From positions 186,001 to 250,000 of the forward strand of contig NZ_LNQC01000045.1 in assembly GCF_001651855.1 (NCBI RefSeq): DNA of 64,000 nucleotides, in the 5' to 3' direction. Shown in pieces: positions 12,520 through 50,420 of this stretch (position 1 is its first letter; every line of letters begins with the position of its first letter). The notes below the pieces were generated by a model. It did not search any database and had not been told where the DNA came from. It worked only from the letters and a program-made list of their open reading frames with translations. The position numbers were made by a program, and so were the translations under genes. This stretch comes from Sinorhizobium americanum. GTDB taxonomy: Bacteria > Pseudomonadota > Alphaproteobacteria > Rhizobiales > Rhizobiaceae.

Positions 12520-13817
12520 CCCGAAGCGGCCGCCTTCTTTTCCGGCTTTTGCCGGGGCGGCGGATCGACAAAGGCGCCGGGTTCGTTGACGGTGTTGTGG
12601 TGCAGTCGCTCGGCAATGGCTTGAGCCCCGGCATCGGTTCCGGCGGCGGAATAGAAGTTGCCGCGAACCTGGATCGAGGCCGCCATCAGCCGGAACATTG
12701 CCGTGCTCAGCTCCGAATCCGGCGGCCGCGGCGCTTTCCAGAACGTATCTAGCGGCTGCTGGTCCGTGAGCCCCCCGATATCGAAAACGGCTTTGCCGAG
12801 GATTTTCACCGGTTTGCCCTGCTTCAAGGCATGCAATCCGGCGGTCGAGTTGACCGTCACCATGCCAGTGCACTTTTCCGCCAGCAGATCCAGATTGCCG
12901 CCATCAAGATAGATGACGCGCTCGGCCACCCCGAGGGCCGCCGCTTGATGGGCAATGATCCGGCGCCAGGGGATAAGGCTGTTGTCGAGCGGGTGCAACT
13001 TGACGGCGAGCTTGCTGGTCGCCGGCGCATGGCGCGCGAAGGAGGCCAAAATATCCGCGATCGCCTCCTTCTGGCTGTTGAAGGGAGAGTGCGCCCGCAG
13101 TTGGAAATCGGTCTCGAGTTGCAGCGGGTAGACGAAATAGGGCGCGCCTGCAGCCGTGAGCGAGGCGACCAGCGCGTCTGCGGCTCTTTGCTGGCGCTTG
13201 CTTGCAGCCAGACGTCTCACCCAGCCGGCATATTCGGCCAGCGGATGAAAGATCGCGTGCCGGCGATAACCCGGAAAAAGAAACCAGAAGAAGACATTCG
13301 GCAGATTGTAGAGAAGGTCATAGGCCGCCTCGGCCAGGAAGGCCTGTGTGTGCCGCCGCCGCCAGTCCGGCTCCGGCAATCCGGCCGCCGCTTGCAGGAT
13401 CTGCCGCGGATCGACGGGGAAATGCGAATTGGACGACATGCCGCCTCGCTCGAGCGTAAGCCAGTCGGGCCTGAGATACCCCATCTCGACGACGAAGACC
13501 TCGATCCCGAGCCGGCGAGCGGCGGCGATCGCCACCCGGTGGTAGGGGCGCTCCTCGCCGAGGAGGACGAGATCGCTGACGGAATGGCGGCGGAGGAACA
13601 GCTCCACATAAGCGCCCCAATCGGTGAGCGAGCCGCGATAGTTGTGCGCCCCGCCGCGCCGCCAGAAGATCTGGTCGCCCGCGTTGAGATTGATGCGCAG
13701 GCATGTGTGGCCGAAGGCCTCGAGCCGCGCGGCGATCTTGGCAAAGATCGGCGAAGACGGGCCCTGCAGGAACAGGAATGTCCGCCGTGGCTGCTGGATC
13801 GTGGTGCCTGCCGTCAT
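12489..13817 (-). CDS. rkpJ: RkpJ, capsule polysaccharide synthesis protein (KpsS-like)
   Basis: The 442-residue cytosolic protein resembles the capsule_synth family (KpsS/LipB, involved in building or modifying the lipid end of capsular chains). Visible family features are the N-terminal RTFLFLQGPSSPIFAKIAAR (the QGP motif typical of KpsS), GLHALKQGKPVKILGKAVFD and TVNSTAGLHALKQG, all also seen in Kdo transferase-like capsule proteins. ATG 13817 is chosen because it starts 23 bases after the rkpI stop. An upstream in-frame ATG at 13901 would overlap rkpI by 61 bases. It is the last gene of the rkpAGHIJ run. The disordered C-terminus is rich in Pro/Lys/Ala. Confidence 0.85.
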   Translation of the reverse strand: MTAGTTIQQPRRTFLFLQGPSSPIFAKIAARLEAFGHTCLRINLNAGDQIFWRRGGAHNYRGSLTDWGAYVELFLRRHSVSDLVLLGEERPYHRVAIAAARRLGIEVFVVEMGYLRPDWLTLERGGMSSNSHFPVDPRQILQAAAGLPEPDWRRRHTQAFLAEAAYDLLYNLPNVFFWFLFPGYRRHAIFHPLAEYAGWVRRLAASKRQQRAADALVASLTAAGAPYFVYPLQLETDFQLRAHSPFNSQKEAIADILASFARHAPATSKLAVKLHPLDNSLIPWRRIIAHQAAALGVAERVIYLDGGNLDLLAEKCTGMVTVNSTAGLHALKQGKPVKILGKAVFDIGGLTDQQPLDTFWKAPRPPDSELSTAMFRLMAASIQVRGNFYSAAGTDAGAQAIAERLHHNTVNEPGAFVDPPPRQKPEKKAAASGQATPARKRS

Positions 13818-46276: not shown

Positions 46277-47653
46277 CTAAGAAGCTTTTTCGCAGAGCGA
46301 CCGCGCGTTCAGGAGACCCCAGCCGAAGACTGGATCCTTGCCCGGATCGCCGAGGTCTTCGACGTTGCCGGCGAGCCTCTCGCGGATCGGCGCGGGGCCG
46401 AGTGCCGGTTCCGACGCCTTCATCAACGCCACCGCGGCGGTGACGAAAGGTGCGGCGAAGGAGGTGCCGGTTTTCGGACGGGCTCCGCTGATCGACGCCG
46501 CTGTCCAGACGGCCACACCGGGAGCAGCGAAGTCGATGTGGTCGCCGCGTCCGGCGCGCCTGTAAGGTCGCTTGCTCTTGTCCGTCGCCGTCACGGCGAT
46601 GACCTCTTCGTAAGCGGCGGGATAGACCGGCTCCGCTCTCGGGCCGCCATTGCCGGCGGCGGCCACCAGGATGATGCCGCGTTCGCTCGCCTTCTTCACC
46701 ACCTGTTCGAGCAGCCGATTGGGCGGGCCGGCAAGGCTGAGATTGATAAGCTGCACCCGACGCGCAGCAAGGAGGTCGAGAGCACGCACCAGATCGAAGG
46801 CGCCGGAGCGGTCGTCTTGCCTCGTGGCCCGGTAAAATGCATCGACGGCGATCAGGTCCCCGCCCGGAATGAGGCCGGGTGTGCGGCTCGTCGCGGACCC
46901 GACGAGCAGAGCCGCGATGGCAGTGCCGTGCTGCTTCCCCGACTGAGGAAACCGTTCATCGGCAAGGCGGATGATTTCGATATCGCTTCCTTCGAAGGCG
47001 TCGTGCTCGGGGTTGATCGCAGTATCCACGAGGCCGATCGTTACGGCGCCGCTGCAAGCGCTCGGTCGATCGTCAGCCGAGGGCCAGCCGATGACGCTGC
47101 GCGCCAGGCAGTCGCCGTGCGCGCAATGCTCTGCGGCCCGTTCCGGGCGGAAGTAATGGTTGAAGTCGATGCTGGCCTCTGGCGCAAGGGTCTGCGCCCG
47201 CGCTCTCGCGGCGTCCAGTGTCATCCTCGCGGGGATGCGAAGCTTGACGATTTCGCTGTCGAGCATCGTCACCGTGCCGCGGTCGACGACCTCGAAGCCC
47301 GCTTCGGCCAGCTGCGTGAGTTGGGCGGCGCTGAAGCCGAAACCGAGGATCTCATCCGGCGCTCGTGTCGGTACGGCGGGTGCGGCAGGCGCACGCCGGG
47401 CGCTGCTTCGGCGTGGAAAGAAGCCGCGGAAGGGGAGCAGGTTCCTGCCGCCGTTCCACCCCGCGCCGGACCGGTAGGATCCGGAGCGCCCGGATCTGCT
47501 GCCTCCGTCATCGCCGTCGTCATCGTCGGCCAGGGCCGTTTTAGCACCGAGAATTTCCAACTTCGTTCCGCTGCCGGAAACCATGATGTCGCCGGCGACG
47601 AAGGCTATTGCCGTAAGGGACATGACCAGAATTTCTTTCAGCGTGGTCACCAT
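46277..47653 (-). CDS. Secreted subtilisin-like serine protease (S8)
   Basis: The product is 458 residues from ATG 47653 (ribosome-binding site gagg). A hydrophobic N-terminal export segment (about residues 8-28) is followed by a possible ALA-DDDD cleavage site near 42. A disordered acidic and Arg/Ser/Gly-rich stretch spans about 43-100, then comes an inhibitor-like part. The subtilase domain has Asp210 (GLVDTAIN), His242 (KQHGTAIAALLVG), Asn335 (AAAGNGG) and Ser398 (TGTSFAAPF), so the triad is complete. It diverges from the ECF sigma gene with 135 bases between. The promoter element GGAATAGA-N12-CCGTT lies upstream. The longer frame to 48307 is rejected because it is antisense to the sigma gene. 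Confidence 0.92.
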   Translation of the reverse strand: MVTTLKEILVMSLTAIAFVAGDIMVSGSGTKLEILGAKTALADDDDGDDGGSRSGRSGSYRSGAGWNGGRNLLPFRGFFPRRSSARRAPAAPAVPTRAPDEILGFGFSAAQLTQLAEAGFEVVDRGTVTMLDSEIVKLRIPARMTLDAARARAQTLAPEASIDFNHYFRPERAAEHCAHGDCLARSVIGWPSADDRPSACSGAVTIGLVDTAINPEHDAFEGSDIEIIRLADERFPQSGKQHGTAIAALLVGSATSRTPGLIPGGDLIAVDAFYRATRQDDRSGAFDLVRALDLLAARRVQLINLSLAGPPNRLLEQVVKKASERGIILVAAAGNGGPRAEPVYPAAYEEVIAVTATDKSKRPYRRAGRGDHIDFAAPGVAVWTAASISGARPKTGTSFAAPFVTAAVALMKASEPALGPAPIRERLAGNVEDLGDPGKDPVFGWGLLNARSLCEKAS

Positions 47654-47730
47654 CTCAAAACCTCGATCTTGCTTGAAGCAGGAGAGTGCATTGCTTGGAC
47701 AGACGGGCGGCTGCCTGTAGATTGAATGAG

Positions 47731-47755
47731 AACGGCTGAGTCGTCGATCTATTCC
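47731..47755 (-). promoter_or_regulatory. Putative ECF promoter of the subtilase gene
   Basis: On the minus strand it reads GGAATAGA, 12 bases, CCGTT, which is GGAAT-N16-CGTT. The ATG at 47653 lies about 78 bases downstream. The same 13 fixed positions occur upstream of the genes at 49208 and 50362. Confidence 0.75.
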
Positions 47756-47788
47756 CATTTCTCGTCCAAATTGCGGAGTTTCGGAGTC

Positions 47789-48331
47789 ATGAGCGATGCG
47801 GTGAAGGATGTCGGTGAACGCCTCATAGCGTTCCTGCCCAATCTGCGCCGCTTCGCCATATCGCTCTGCCGCTCGCGCGATGTCGCCGACGACCTCGTCC
47901 AGGCGGCTTGCGAACGGGCGCTGGCGAGCGCCGAACGCTTTGAGCCGGGTACGCGCTTCGACGCATGGATGTTCCGCATCCTCCGCAACCTGTGGATCGA
48001 CCAAGTGCGCAGGCAGAAAACCGTGGGCATTCAGGACGATATCTCCGAACGCCATGACATTGCCGGCTCCTCCGGGGAGCGCGAAGCCGAGGCGCGGCTG
48101 ACGCTCAAGACCGTGGCGGAAGCGATCGGAGAGTTGCCGGAGGAGCAGCGGGAGGTGCTCATCCTCGTCTGCGTGGAGGAGCTTTCCTATCGCGAGGCGG
48201 CCGATGTCCTCGACATCCCAATAGGTACGGTAATGAGCAGGCTGGCGAGGGCCCGCAAGAGTCTGGCCGAGACTGCGGGAATAACGGCAAAGACCGCACG
48301 TTCTCACGTAATGAAGGGCGTAGAGGGATGA
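47789..48331 (+). CDS. ECF-family RNA polymerase sigma factor
   Basis: The product is 180 residues from ATG 47789 (GGAG four bases upstream). Region 2 runs through RDVADDLVQAACERALASAE and FDAWMFRILRNLWIDQVRRQ. Region 4 holds LPEEQREVLILVCVEELSYR EAADVLDIPIGTVMSRLARA. It lacks sigma regions 1 and 3, as ECF factors do. The anti-sigma gene overlaps its stop by four bases. The three promoter elements nearby (GGAAT-N16-CGTT) are the likely targets. Its own promoter is not obvious, since no copy of the element faces it. Confidence 0.95.
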   Translation: MSDAVKDVGERLIAFLPNLRRFAISLCRSRDVADDLVQAACERALASAERFEPGTRFDAWMFRILRNLWIDQVRRQKTVGIQDDISERHDIAGSSGEREAEARLTLKTVAEAIGELPEEQREVLILVCVEELSYREAADVLDIPIGTVMSRLARARKSLAETAGITAKTARSHVMKGVEG

Positions 48332-49119
48332 CCAGGACGGATTTCTCCGACGAGATATTGATGCGCTTTGCCGACGGCGAGCTCGATGTCGAGACCTCCG
48401 CTGAGGTCGAGCGGGCGATGGAAACCGACGACGAACTTGTCGCGCGGGTGGGCCTCTTCATCGAAACGCGTCAGGCGGCGAAGACCGCCATGAAACCGCT
48501 ACTCGAAGAACCCTTGCCGGCCGAACTCAAATCCGCCGTCGAGAGGACGGTCGCGGAAAAGGCGTCGGCGCAGAGTGGATCGGCCCCCAGGGTGGTGTCT
48601 TTCCCGCATCGGGCCGCAAACGATCGGCGGATAAGCCGCTGGGCCGCACCCATCGCCGCCTCTGTTGTGGCCGTCATCGCCGGGTTCGGTGGATATTGGC
48701 TGGGCCGCGGTGGCGAAGCGACGCCATCTCATGTGCTGCCGCTCGCGGCTTTGAGCAAACCGGCGCTCGACGAGGCGCTCGTAACGGTCGCCTCCGGTGC
48801 CGAAAGGCAACTGCCGGGTTCCGACCAGCGCTTTCGGGCCATTGCGACATTCCGCGACAATGCACAGGCGCTCTGCCGCGAATTCGAAGTGGATTCGGCC
48901 GACCGCTCGACGGTGGTTTCCGTTGCCTGCCTTGCCGGCGCCGAATGGCGCGTGACTTTCGCCGTCGCCGCGCCAGGCGGCAGCGATGGCTATGCGCCGG
49001 CATCATCGCTCGAAACCCTCGACTCCTATCTGACGGCGATTGGCGCCGGGCAGCCACTCGAGACAGCGGAAGAAGCCAAGATACTCGGCGATCTTCGTCA
49101 AAAACGCGAAGCGAACTAA
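48328..49119 (+). CDS. Membrane anti-sigma factor
   Basis: The 263-residue protein starts MTRTDFSDEILMRFADGELD VETSAEVERAMETDDELVAR, the helical sigma-binding N-terminus of anti-sigma factors (no zinc-binding HCC motif). One membrane helix follows (about 107-128, WAAPIAASVVAVIAGFGGYWLG region), then a periplasmic domain of about 130 residues containing two cysteines (ALCREFEV, VACLAGAEW). It overlaps the sigma gene by four bases. The periplasmic part would sense an envelope signal. Inference: the cysteines may be redox-active or form a disulfide. Confidence 0.88.
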   Translation: MTRTDFSDEILMRFADGELDVETSAEVERAMETDDELVARVGLFIETRQAAKTAMKPLLEEPLPAELKSAVERTVAEKASAQSGSAPRVVSFPHRAANDRRISRWAAPIAASVVAVIAGFGGYWLGRGGEATPSHVLPLAALSKPALDEALVTVASGAERQLPGSDQRFRAIATFRDNAQALCREFEVDSADRSTVVSVACLAGAEWRVTFAVAAPGGSDGYAPASSLETLDSYLTAIGAGQPLETAEEAKILGDLRQKREAN

Positions 49120-49132
49120 AAATTCGCGCCGT

Positions 49133-49157
49133 GGAATAGAGGCAGGCATCGCCCGTT
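49133..49157 (+). promoter_or_regulatory. Putative ECF promoter of the NSSS-repeat gene
   Basis: The element reads GGAATAGA, 12 bases, CCGTT (GGAAT-N16-CGTT). The ATG at 49208 lies 51 bases after the -10-like CGTT, and gaggag provides the ribosome-binding site. It sits in the 88-base gap after the anti-sigma gene, so the repeat gene can be transcribed independently. Confidence 0.78.
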
Positions 49158-49207
49158 ACTCCATCGGACCGAGGAAACCGGTCCGGTCTAAATGAGGAGT
49201 AATTGGC

Positions 49208-49582
49208 ATGATCAAGAATTGGGTAAATACCGCGCTCGCCGCCGGATTGGCGGCATTCGTGGGCTCTGCCGCCGAGGCGAGCCAGCACCCGCAGATCCTT
49301 CCTGACGGCGCCAGCTCGCAGAGGCAGAGCAGCCACGCGACCGGGCGCACGGACGGCGAGATCATCGTTGCCGGCAACAGTTCGTCCAACTCGAGTTCCA
49401 ATTCATCGAGCAATTCCAGTTCCAACTCGTCTTCGAACAGCTCCTCGAATTCGAGTTCGAACTCCTCTTCGAACAGTTCCTCGAACTCCAGTTCGAACTC
49501 GTCCTCGAACAGTTCGTCCAACTCGAGCTCGAACAGCTCCGATCGGGACTATCGTCCCGGCAAGCTGTGGCGCGTGCGCTGA
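49208..49582 (+). CDS. Exported (NSSS)13 repeat protein
   Basis: The 124-residue protein has a signal peptide (MIKNWVNTALAAGLAAFVGS AAEAS, cleavage near residue 25). A polar spacer (about 26-56) is followed by thirteen uninterrupted NSSS tetrapeptides and NSSD (57-112), and a short basic C-terminus (RDYRPGKLWRVR). No enzyme domain is present. The composition suggests a flexible, secreted or surface-exposed polymer. Ser/Asn-rich tracts can be glycosylated or cell-wall associated, but that is inference. It belongs to the ECF locus by position and by the shared promoter element. A strong terminator follows. Confidence 0.88.
   Translation: MIKNWVNTALAAGLAAFVGSAAEASQHPQILPDGASSQRQSSHATGRTDGEIIVAGNSSSNSSSNSSSNSSSNSSSNSSSNSSSNSSSNSSSNSSSNSSSNSSSNSSSNSSDRDYRPGKLWRVR
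49376..49543 (+). repeat. Degenerate 12-bp tandem repeat encoding NSSS
   Basis: Fourteen 12-base units encode NSSS thirteen times and then NSSD. The units differ in synonymous codons: all six serine codons (AGT, AGC, TCA, TCC, TCG, TCT) and both asparagine codons occur. No two adjacent units are identical, although some distant ones are. Confidence 0.95.
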
Positions 49583-49599
49583 ATACGCACGGCAAAGGA

Positions 49600-49630
49600 A
49601 GCGGGGGCCGGATGAATGCCGGCCCCCGCT
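49600..49630. terminator. Terminator between the convergent repeat gene and DUF gene
   Basis: Arms agcgggggccgg and ccggcccccgct enclose a seven-base loop. T-rich DNA follows on the plus side (catttatctt) and a shorter T-rich run on the minus side. It probably serves both convergent genes. Confidence 0.8.
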
Positions 49631-49648
49631 CATTTATCTTGTAACGTT

Positions 49649-50362
49649 TCAACGAACAGCACGCGCCACCTTTCGGTACCACCCCTGACCGGCGATTGTG
49701 TTCCGGTAGATCGTCTCGCGCTCGACGGCCTCCCGTCTGGTCTCGGCGCGGATTTCCGCCGTCACGGCTGCATCCACGCGGCGAAACGGTATCACCTGAA
49801 CGAGCGGCGTTCCCTTCTCGATGACATGGAGGCCATCCGGCGCCGTGGCGAAGAAGGGGAAGTGGATGTTTGCGGCGTAGGTATCGGTGTCGACGATGCC
49901 CGCCACGCATTCGAATGGCTGCCCCGGCCGGTTGAGCGGCGGCAGGAAAAGGCAGCTCCAGCCAGGCGGCGTTCGTATTGACCAGTAGTTGTGAAACTTG
50001 CAAGGGGGAGAGGGCTCGCGGGGATTTCCCGCCACCTGATGAGCCCCGTGATTGCTGACCATGACGCGGTCGAACTCCCAGCCTGCTTCGACACTGCGGC
50101 CGCCGTCCTTGATCTCCAACCTGACGGTGGCGGCGATCGGCAGAATCCACCCGGCGGCCATCGCATCGAGAAAAGGCATGCAGCGCTTGGCGGTCAGGCC
50201 ATTGTTGCCGGTCGACAAGTGGTTTTTATCAATCGCCGGCAGCTTTCGGAACCAATCCGGCAGGGCCGACTTGGCCGGCACAGGCCGCGCGATGACGCCT
50301 TGGTCCTCCGGCCGGCAGAGAAAGCGCATGACCCGCGGTTCTTTCTGCAAAATATTCAACAT
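49649..50362 (-). CDS. Conserved hypothetical protein, DUF6065-like
   Basis: The 237-residue soluble protein starts MLNILQKEPRVMRFLCRPED. It contains ALPDWFRKLPAIDKN, KRCMPFLDAMAAGWILPIAA, VSNHGAHQVAG and FFATAPDGLHVIEKGTPLVQ VIPF. The PDW...C.PF.DAM..GW pattern resembles DUF6065 proteins, a family of unknown function with phage and proteobacterial members. That assignment is from memory and tentative. Its start has a good ribosome-binding site (ggag) and the third copy of the GGAATAGA-N12-CCGTT element upstream, which links it to the sigma/anti-sigma/subtilase locus. Confidence 0.8.
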   Translation of the reverse strand: MLNILQKEPRVMRFLCRPEDQGVIARPVPAKSALPDWFRKLPAIDKNHLSTGNNGLTAKRCMPFLDAMAAGWILPIAATVRLEIKDGGRSVEAGWEFDRVMVSNHGAHQVAGNPREPSPPCKFHNYWSIRTPPGWSCLFLPPLNRPGQPFECVAGIVDTDTYAANIHFPFFATAPDGLHVIEKGTPLVQVIPFRRVDAAVTAEIRAETRREAVERETIYRNTIAGQGWYRKVARAVR

Positions 50363-50395
50363 CCCGGTTTCTCCAGTTTCGAGTGGCTCGGGAGA

Positions 50396-50420
50396 AACGG
50401 TGCGGCGCGACTTCTATTCC
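50396..50420 (-). promoter_or_regulatory. Putative ECF promoter of the DUF6065-like gene
   Basis: The minus strand reads GGAATAGA, 12 bases, CCGTT. It lies in the 70-base gap between the antiporter stop (50433) and ATG 50362, with about 34 bases from CGTT to the start codon. It matches the elements at 47731 and 49133 at all 13 fixed positions. Confidence 0.75.

Follow-up and report, generated by a model that had tools for sequence, protein, structure and literature searches.

An anti-sigma-directed promoter element inside an rpoE6-type ECF sigma gene: conservation and a predicted reversal of feedback

We consider here the locus of an extracytoplasmic function (ECF) sigma factor and its anti-sigma factor in Sinorhizobium americanum, situated in a stretch of 64,000 nucleotides (contig NZ_LNQC01000045.1, positions 186,001 to 250,000; hereafter, the window). 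The initial annotation had described three copies of a promoter element around the sigma gene and stated that the gene itself has no visible copy. The observation of the three copies is right and the regulon is known; the interesting part is a fourth, overlooked element, as, contrary to that statement, GGAATAACGGCAAAGACCGCACGTT is present at 48278-48302 on the plus strand, within the open reading frame (ORF) of the sigma gene, and ends 25 nucleotides 5' of the anti-sigma gene start (48328). It is three mismatches off the 13-base form of the other copies, yet it is an exact GGAATA-N15-CGTT, and this match, together with conservation and codon bias, makes it a candidate intragenic ECF promoter of the anti-sigma gene. 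We consider it probable that in this lineage positive autoregulation was swapped for feedback through the anti-sigma factor alone, mediated by a promoter that also encodes protein, with a net self-limiting effect.

Distribution of the element among relatives

Relatives of the sigma protein were collected from named contigs, as the best 80 matches of a capped scan, and from 199 genomes of the family, 397 of the order, and 33 of the genus. The 152 loci with sigma matches were reduced to 143 by removal of nine duplicates, and to 142 by exclusion of one too short locus (L062). The first tree retained 117 rows, as those below 44.5% identity were dropped; the columns of the sigma tail were left out. 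From this tree 64 clade rows and 28 outgroup rows were picked by hand, with the table of elements already seen, and the split was tested afterwards in a careful tree of 92 rows (64 clade and 28 near rows). A branch with 95/65 support, present in 96% of 200 bootstrap trees with the bootstrap still unsettled, sets the clade holding the window apart from the other rows.

The conservation motif was GGAAT-N15..17-CGT, and the upstream search window covered 15-110 bases 5' of the sigma gene. The element lies within the sigma gene or at its end in 62 out of 64 clade rows, whereas none of the 28 outgroup rows has it there; with the stricter -10 CGT[TC], the intragenic element is retained in 60 of the 64. 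The plus-strand element 5' of the sigma gene is distributed in the opposite way, being found in two clade rows and in 25 out of 28 outgroup rows, so that the exchange of architectures is directly visible in these counts. In more distant flanking DNA, the motif occurred 33 times in 950,418 strand-bases, which corresponds to 0.0045 per search window. Since loci from other orders of the class (n = 20) have the intragenic element in none and the upstream element in 19 cases, the upstream form is most likely the older one. The minus-strand element facing away from the sigma gene in its upstream region was observed, with the relaxed motif, in 56 out of 64 clade rows and 15 out of 28 outgroup rows.

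The anti-sigma gene starts 22-28 nucleotides 3' of the intragenic -10 in 54 out of 60 rows; the other six fall outside this range, some of them probably due to wrong start calls by the script. One clade member, L126 (G165:C1), has neither the intragenic element nor, in its 3.5 kb, an anti-sigma match, and is possibly a decaying copy. Anti-sigma matches were found in 23 out of 28 outgroup rows, and two of the five loci without a match end at or just past the sigma gene. In two loci, L160 and L161, the upstream and divergent elements overlap at -82 to -44 from the sigma gene with a palindromic -35 GGAATAATTCC, forming a back-to-back ECF promoter pair.

Codon usage in the sigma tail

The conservation of the intragenic element extends to the choice of synonymous codons. 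Of the 62 clade rows with Gly at codon 164, 61 use GGA (background 15.9%); likewise, codon 165 is ATA in 60 out of 61 rows with Ile (8.6%), codon 171 is CGT in all 56 rows with Arg (9.6%; seven rows gapped), and codon 172 is TCT in 39 out of 52 rows with Ser (2.8%). No other column among the 113 that could be scored is as biased as these four, which spell out the -35 and -10 boxes, while the residues encoded between them vary. In L051, L151, and L153 the stop codon of the sigma gene lies inside the element, with the -10 CGTT retained; L048 and L049 have the CGTA form of the -10. The sister rows L163 and L164, which have the upstream promoter instead, encode the same Gly-Ile as GGG-ATC and GGC-ATC.

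Gly-Ile and Arg-Ser are also conserved residues in most rows, and one could suppose that the tail (Gly-Ile ... Arg-Ser) is kept for protein function, the promoter likeness being incidental. However, codon choice is fixed far above background just at the -35 and -10 codons, the sister rows use different codons for the same Gly-Ile, the three proteins named above end inside the element with its -10 retained, and a promoter has been listed at this place in S. meliloti (PMC6180224). The codon use, the L163 and L164 codons, and the stops inside the element rule out that the tail is conserved for a protein motif alone, and we regard incidental likeness as extremely unlikely. Judging from codon use, the DNA, and not only the protein, is kept at the sigma tail.

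Promoters and genes of the locus

The three GGAATAGA-N12-CCGTT copies are where the initial annotation had placed them, with no mismatches, at 47731-47755 (minus strand; P2), 49133-49157 (plus strand; P1), and 50396-50420 (minus strand; P3). As exact copies, they are the predicted ECF promoters of the subtilase, NSSS-repeat protein, and DUF6065 genes, respectively; the P2 transcript would start, by analogy, at about 47722. The distances to the start codons, given earlier as about 35-80 bases, are 77 (P2), 50 (P1), and 33 (P3) bases. The whole-genome search (6,649,779 bases) retrieved the same three sites as the only exact copies, and two more with one mismatch. The ORF list around the one-mismatch site L004 identified no further target. 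At up to three mismatches to the 13-base form, there are 25 matches in the window vs. a shuffled mean of 10.65. The earlier statement that the -35 part has no other occurrence in this orientation fails, as GGAATAGA is present also at 12648 (plus strand), without a matching -10. The form shared with the intragenic element, GGAATA-N15-CGTT, occurs genome-wide (6.65 Mb) at nine sites vs. one for the reversed control, and four of the nine are clustered in 2.7 kb of the rpoE6-type locus; ORF lists near three of the five others (L185, L187, L188) identified no further target. The -35 GGAATA and -10 GT of the RpoE6-type ECF26 are found at four sites of the locus.

These promoters can be compared with those of S. 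meliloti, where each ECF sigma was overexpressed by Lang et al. (2018; PMC6180224). Overexpression of RpoE6 (SMa0143) increased the transcripts of SMa0142, SMa0144, SMa0146, and SMa0148, with log2 values of 4.7 for the serine protease gene SMa0142 and 6.5 for SMa0148, and with SMa0146 as a prominent target; the consensus is -35 GGAATA and -10 GT (PMC6180224). The promoter listed for SMa0142, GGAATAGACCGACGACTCAGCCGTT, differs from P2 of the window in one base of 25, and that for SMa0148, GGAATAGAAGCCTCTCCGTTCCGTT, holds all 13 fixed bases of the window element; a promoter of ecfR6 within rpoE6 is listed as well (PMC6180224). The rpoE6-ecfR6 locus of pSymA (SMa0142-SMa0148) is orthologous to the locus considered here and shares its gene order and motif (PMC6180224). 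The proposal that P1-P3 are targets of the neighboring ECF sigma gains support from RpoE6 overexpression and start-site mapping in S. meliloti, which link the protease and DUF6065-type genes with the sigma factor (PMC6180224). The small regulon outlined in the initial annotation stands as one already published for S. meliloti, though it was incomplete, as the anti-sigma-directed copy inside the sigma gene had been overlooked. Sections 6-7 of the S. meliloti study do not treat cross-genus conservation, codon constraint, or the exchange with upstream autoregulation (PMC6180224). Counterparts of the window elements in S. meliloti 4H41 (L032) lie 5' of the genes of an NSSS protein and a DUF6065 protein, and judging from the gene order there, the NSSS protein would be SMa0146. 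A foreign ECF26 promoter is activated by RpoE6 at about log2 8 in an S. meliloti strain lacking ECF sigma factors (PMC10880074). An in planta screen of peptidases included the SMa0142 protease, with a fixation score of + (PMC8175422).

One may ask whether a different sigma factor (RpoE2 or another ECF26 paralog) is the main user of the elements and the neighboring sigma a minor one. Out of 40 RpoE6 targets, 27 are common to RpoE2, and RpoE4 raises SMa0142 weakly, by 0.7 (PMC6180224); moreover, paralogs do exist, as genome G000 has eight matches in all to the sigma protein. However, SMa0148 and SMa0144 are listed in Table 1 under RpoE6 alone, the response of SMa0142 is 4.7 with RpoE6 vs. 0.7 with RpoE4 (PMC6180224), and the elements accompany the neighboring sigma across the clade. 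We consider such division of labor very unlikely.

The sigma factor of the rpoE6 type (180 aa; 47789-48331, plus strand), supported by orthologs, has regions 2 and 4 only (Sigma70_r2, Sigma70_r4_2), the adjoining membrane anti-sigma factor (263 aa; 48328-49119, plus strand) has a cytoplasmic domain, a membrane helix, and a periplasmic domain, and a serine protease gene is divergent from the sigma gene, all as in RpoE6-type ECF26. By analogy, this is an rpoE6-type ECF26 sigma/anti-sigma module, with the group taken over from the ortholog (PMC6180224). The divergent gene encodes a subtilase, or S8 peptidase (46277-47653, minus strand; Pfam Peptidase_S8, 7.7e-32); according to a rough motif test, a divergent subtilase is present in 47 out of 64 clade rows (with many of the loci truncated at 1.5 kb) and in 10 out of 28 outgroup rows. 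Downstream of the anti-sigma gene are the NSSS-repeat protein gene (49208-49582, plus strand), recognized from its translation, with an export-like N-terminus and with relatives behind the element elsewhere, and the DUF6065 protein gene (49649-50362, minus strand; Pfam DUF6065, 1.1e-08).

Proteins with (NSSS)n repeats recur behind the same element in L031-L036, L038, and L044, and across many loci the repeat stretch is often preceded by a DGxIIVAG-like segment. L051 has a D-rich repeat protein at a comparable place. In L036 (Inquilinus limosus), the subtilase and NSSS-type protein genes have moved downstream of the sigma gene, to about +2700, each behind its own element.

In the C-terminal domain of the anti-sigma factor, Cys183 is present in 59 and Cys201 in 60 out of 60 clade proteins, and the two residues sit on successive strands (182-189 and 195-203) of the structure model. 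This cysteine pair hints at a redox signal, a disulfide-based one being a guess. Comparison of the anti-sigma alignment profile with solved structures yielded a best E-value of 0.19, which is at chance level, and Foldseek returned nothing at E <= 0.001; no clear relative of the C-terminal domain was apparent, which is uninformative either way.

Proposed wiring and comparison with known systems

The window has no plus-strand sigma-type element 5' of the sigma gene. A predicted RpoD-like promoter, TTGGAC (47695-47700)-N17-TAGATT (47718-47723), is found there on the plus strand (47695-47723) and matches the promoter region of S. meliloti rpoE6, whose mapped start has RpoD/RpoH-like motifs (PMC6180224). 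By analogy, the predicted start of the sigma transcript, 47731, falls in the -10 of P2, and that of the protease transcript, about 47722, in the -10 of the sigma promoter. The overlapping head-to-head pair is recognizable in 13 out of 14 Sinorhizobium rows, with base changes in some of them. As two polymerases should not fit on overlapping promoters at once, activity of P2 should hinder synthesis of new sigma. In L177, L179, and L180, the pair lies about 90 bases farther from the sigma start codon, giving a long leader. Scanning for RpoD-like promoters 5' of the sigma gene gave a mean best score of 2.63 vs. 2.02 for shuffled sequences in the clade, and 1.32 vs. 0.96 in the outgroup, the shuffles preserving base composition only; accordingly, we make no RpoD-like claim outside Sinorhizobium.

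Taken together, the module would comprise four promoters for its own sigma factor, those of the subtilase (P2), the anti-sigma factor (intragenic), the NSSS protein (P1), and the DUF6065 protein (P3). Sigma would be made from the RpoD-like promoter, with basal sigma and anti-sigma on one transcript. A signal acting on the C-terminal domain of the membrane anti-sigma factor would free sigma, which would then fire the genes of the protease, NSSS protein, and DUF6065 protein; activation upon overexpression and the start sites are known from the S. meliloti work (PMC6180224). Freed sigma would also fire the intragenic element, producing a short transcript with the anti-sigma gene alone, that is, negative feedback, while polymerase on P2 would hinder the head-to-head sigma promoter. 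The inferred parts of this scheme are the negative sign of the feedback, the hindrance of the sigma promoter, and the nature of the signal. For a more far-reaching version, we see roughly even chances: this ECF26 lineage would have reversed the sign of its feedback, as the upstream promoter was lost, the tail codons became the anti-sigma promoter, in Sinorhizobium the divergent promoters shut each other, and the tail is kept largely for the promoter of the inhibitor.

Several observations weigh against the proposed swap. L135 has an anti-sigma match and no intragenic element, and L047, L128, and L153 have both elements (strict motif, wider upstream window). On the tree, whose support is moderate, the exchange of architectures amounts to roughly a single event, not to a repeated correlation; there are two to three independent pairs of intragenic vs. 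upstream element on the starred branches, which puts significance out of reach. Neither element was found, with the motif used, in the 25 rows farthest away in the first tree; since the motif of S. meliloti RpoE1, a member of the same group, is reported as GAAT-N18-GTCT (PMC3616915), the search may simply miss their elements. The overlap of promoters is clear in Sinorhizobium only, and the scan yielded no clear case beyond the genus. Finally, Lang et al. took the rise of ecfR6, seen only with RpoE6, as an argument for autogenous control of the whole operon, with an internal promoter as a further possibility (PMC6180224).

That interpretation, in which sigma positively autoregulates its whole operon with the anti-sigma gene and the intragenic site adds only a minor promoter, follows the usual rule for ECF sigma factors (PMC8103513). 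However, the plus-strand element it implies 5' of the sigma gene is absent from the window and found in just two of the 64 clade rows, the rpoE6 start in S. meliloti has motifs of the RpoD/RpoH type, and the rpoE6 increase in that experiment stems from the plasmid-borne gene (PMC6180224). Autoregulation of the whole operon seems to us unlikely, and feedback through the anti-sigma factor alone remains the preferred interpretation.

If it is true, a self-amplifying alarm was turned into a self-limiting one. No other part of the system is as well conserved as the intragenic element, which alters the view of the system's control. As target motifs are often derived from the upstream region of the sigma gene itself (PMC8103513), a clade with the motif inside that gene would escape such methods. 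The clade and its sister systems, which share the motif but are wired in opposite ways, provide a natural comparison, and the promoter can be removed by synonymous changes, so that the effect of the ECF feedback sign on the stress response becomes directly testable.

Among the papers listed in our literature searches on internal anti-sigma promoters or the rpoE6 locus, only PMC3489674 and PMC6180224 were judged relevant; a Brucella ECF paper was rejected, as the available part concerns group ECF16. The closest systems, besides the orthologous S. meliloti locus, include the upstream-autoregulated ECF26-like modules of the 28 outgroup rows and 20 class-level loci, which have a related sigma and the same motif as the clade, but with the element facing the sigma gene from its 5' side (25 out of 28 and 19 out of 20, respectively) and none inside it. 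Corynebacterium glutamicum SigH belongs to a different phylum and a different ECF group than the window sigma. Nevertheless, the sigH-rshA system is a precedent with the same logic: both genes have housekeeping promoters, and a sigma-dependent promoter within the sigma gene drives the anti-sigma gene alone (PMC3489674). In the window, the candidate intragenic element has the corresponding position, in the sigma gene just 5' of the anti-sigma gene, with promoter activity known from the S. meliloti work only (PMC6180224), whereas neither a divergent protease overlap nor a clade-wide codon constraint is seen in the available part of the sigH-rshA report (PMC3489674). What is added here is that a whole clade has the predicted anti-sigma-only feedback as a fixed trait, encoded in the codons of the sigma tail and replacing the upstream promoter of the relatives.

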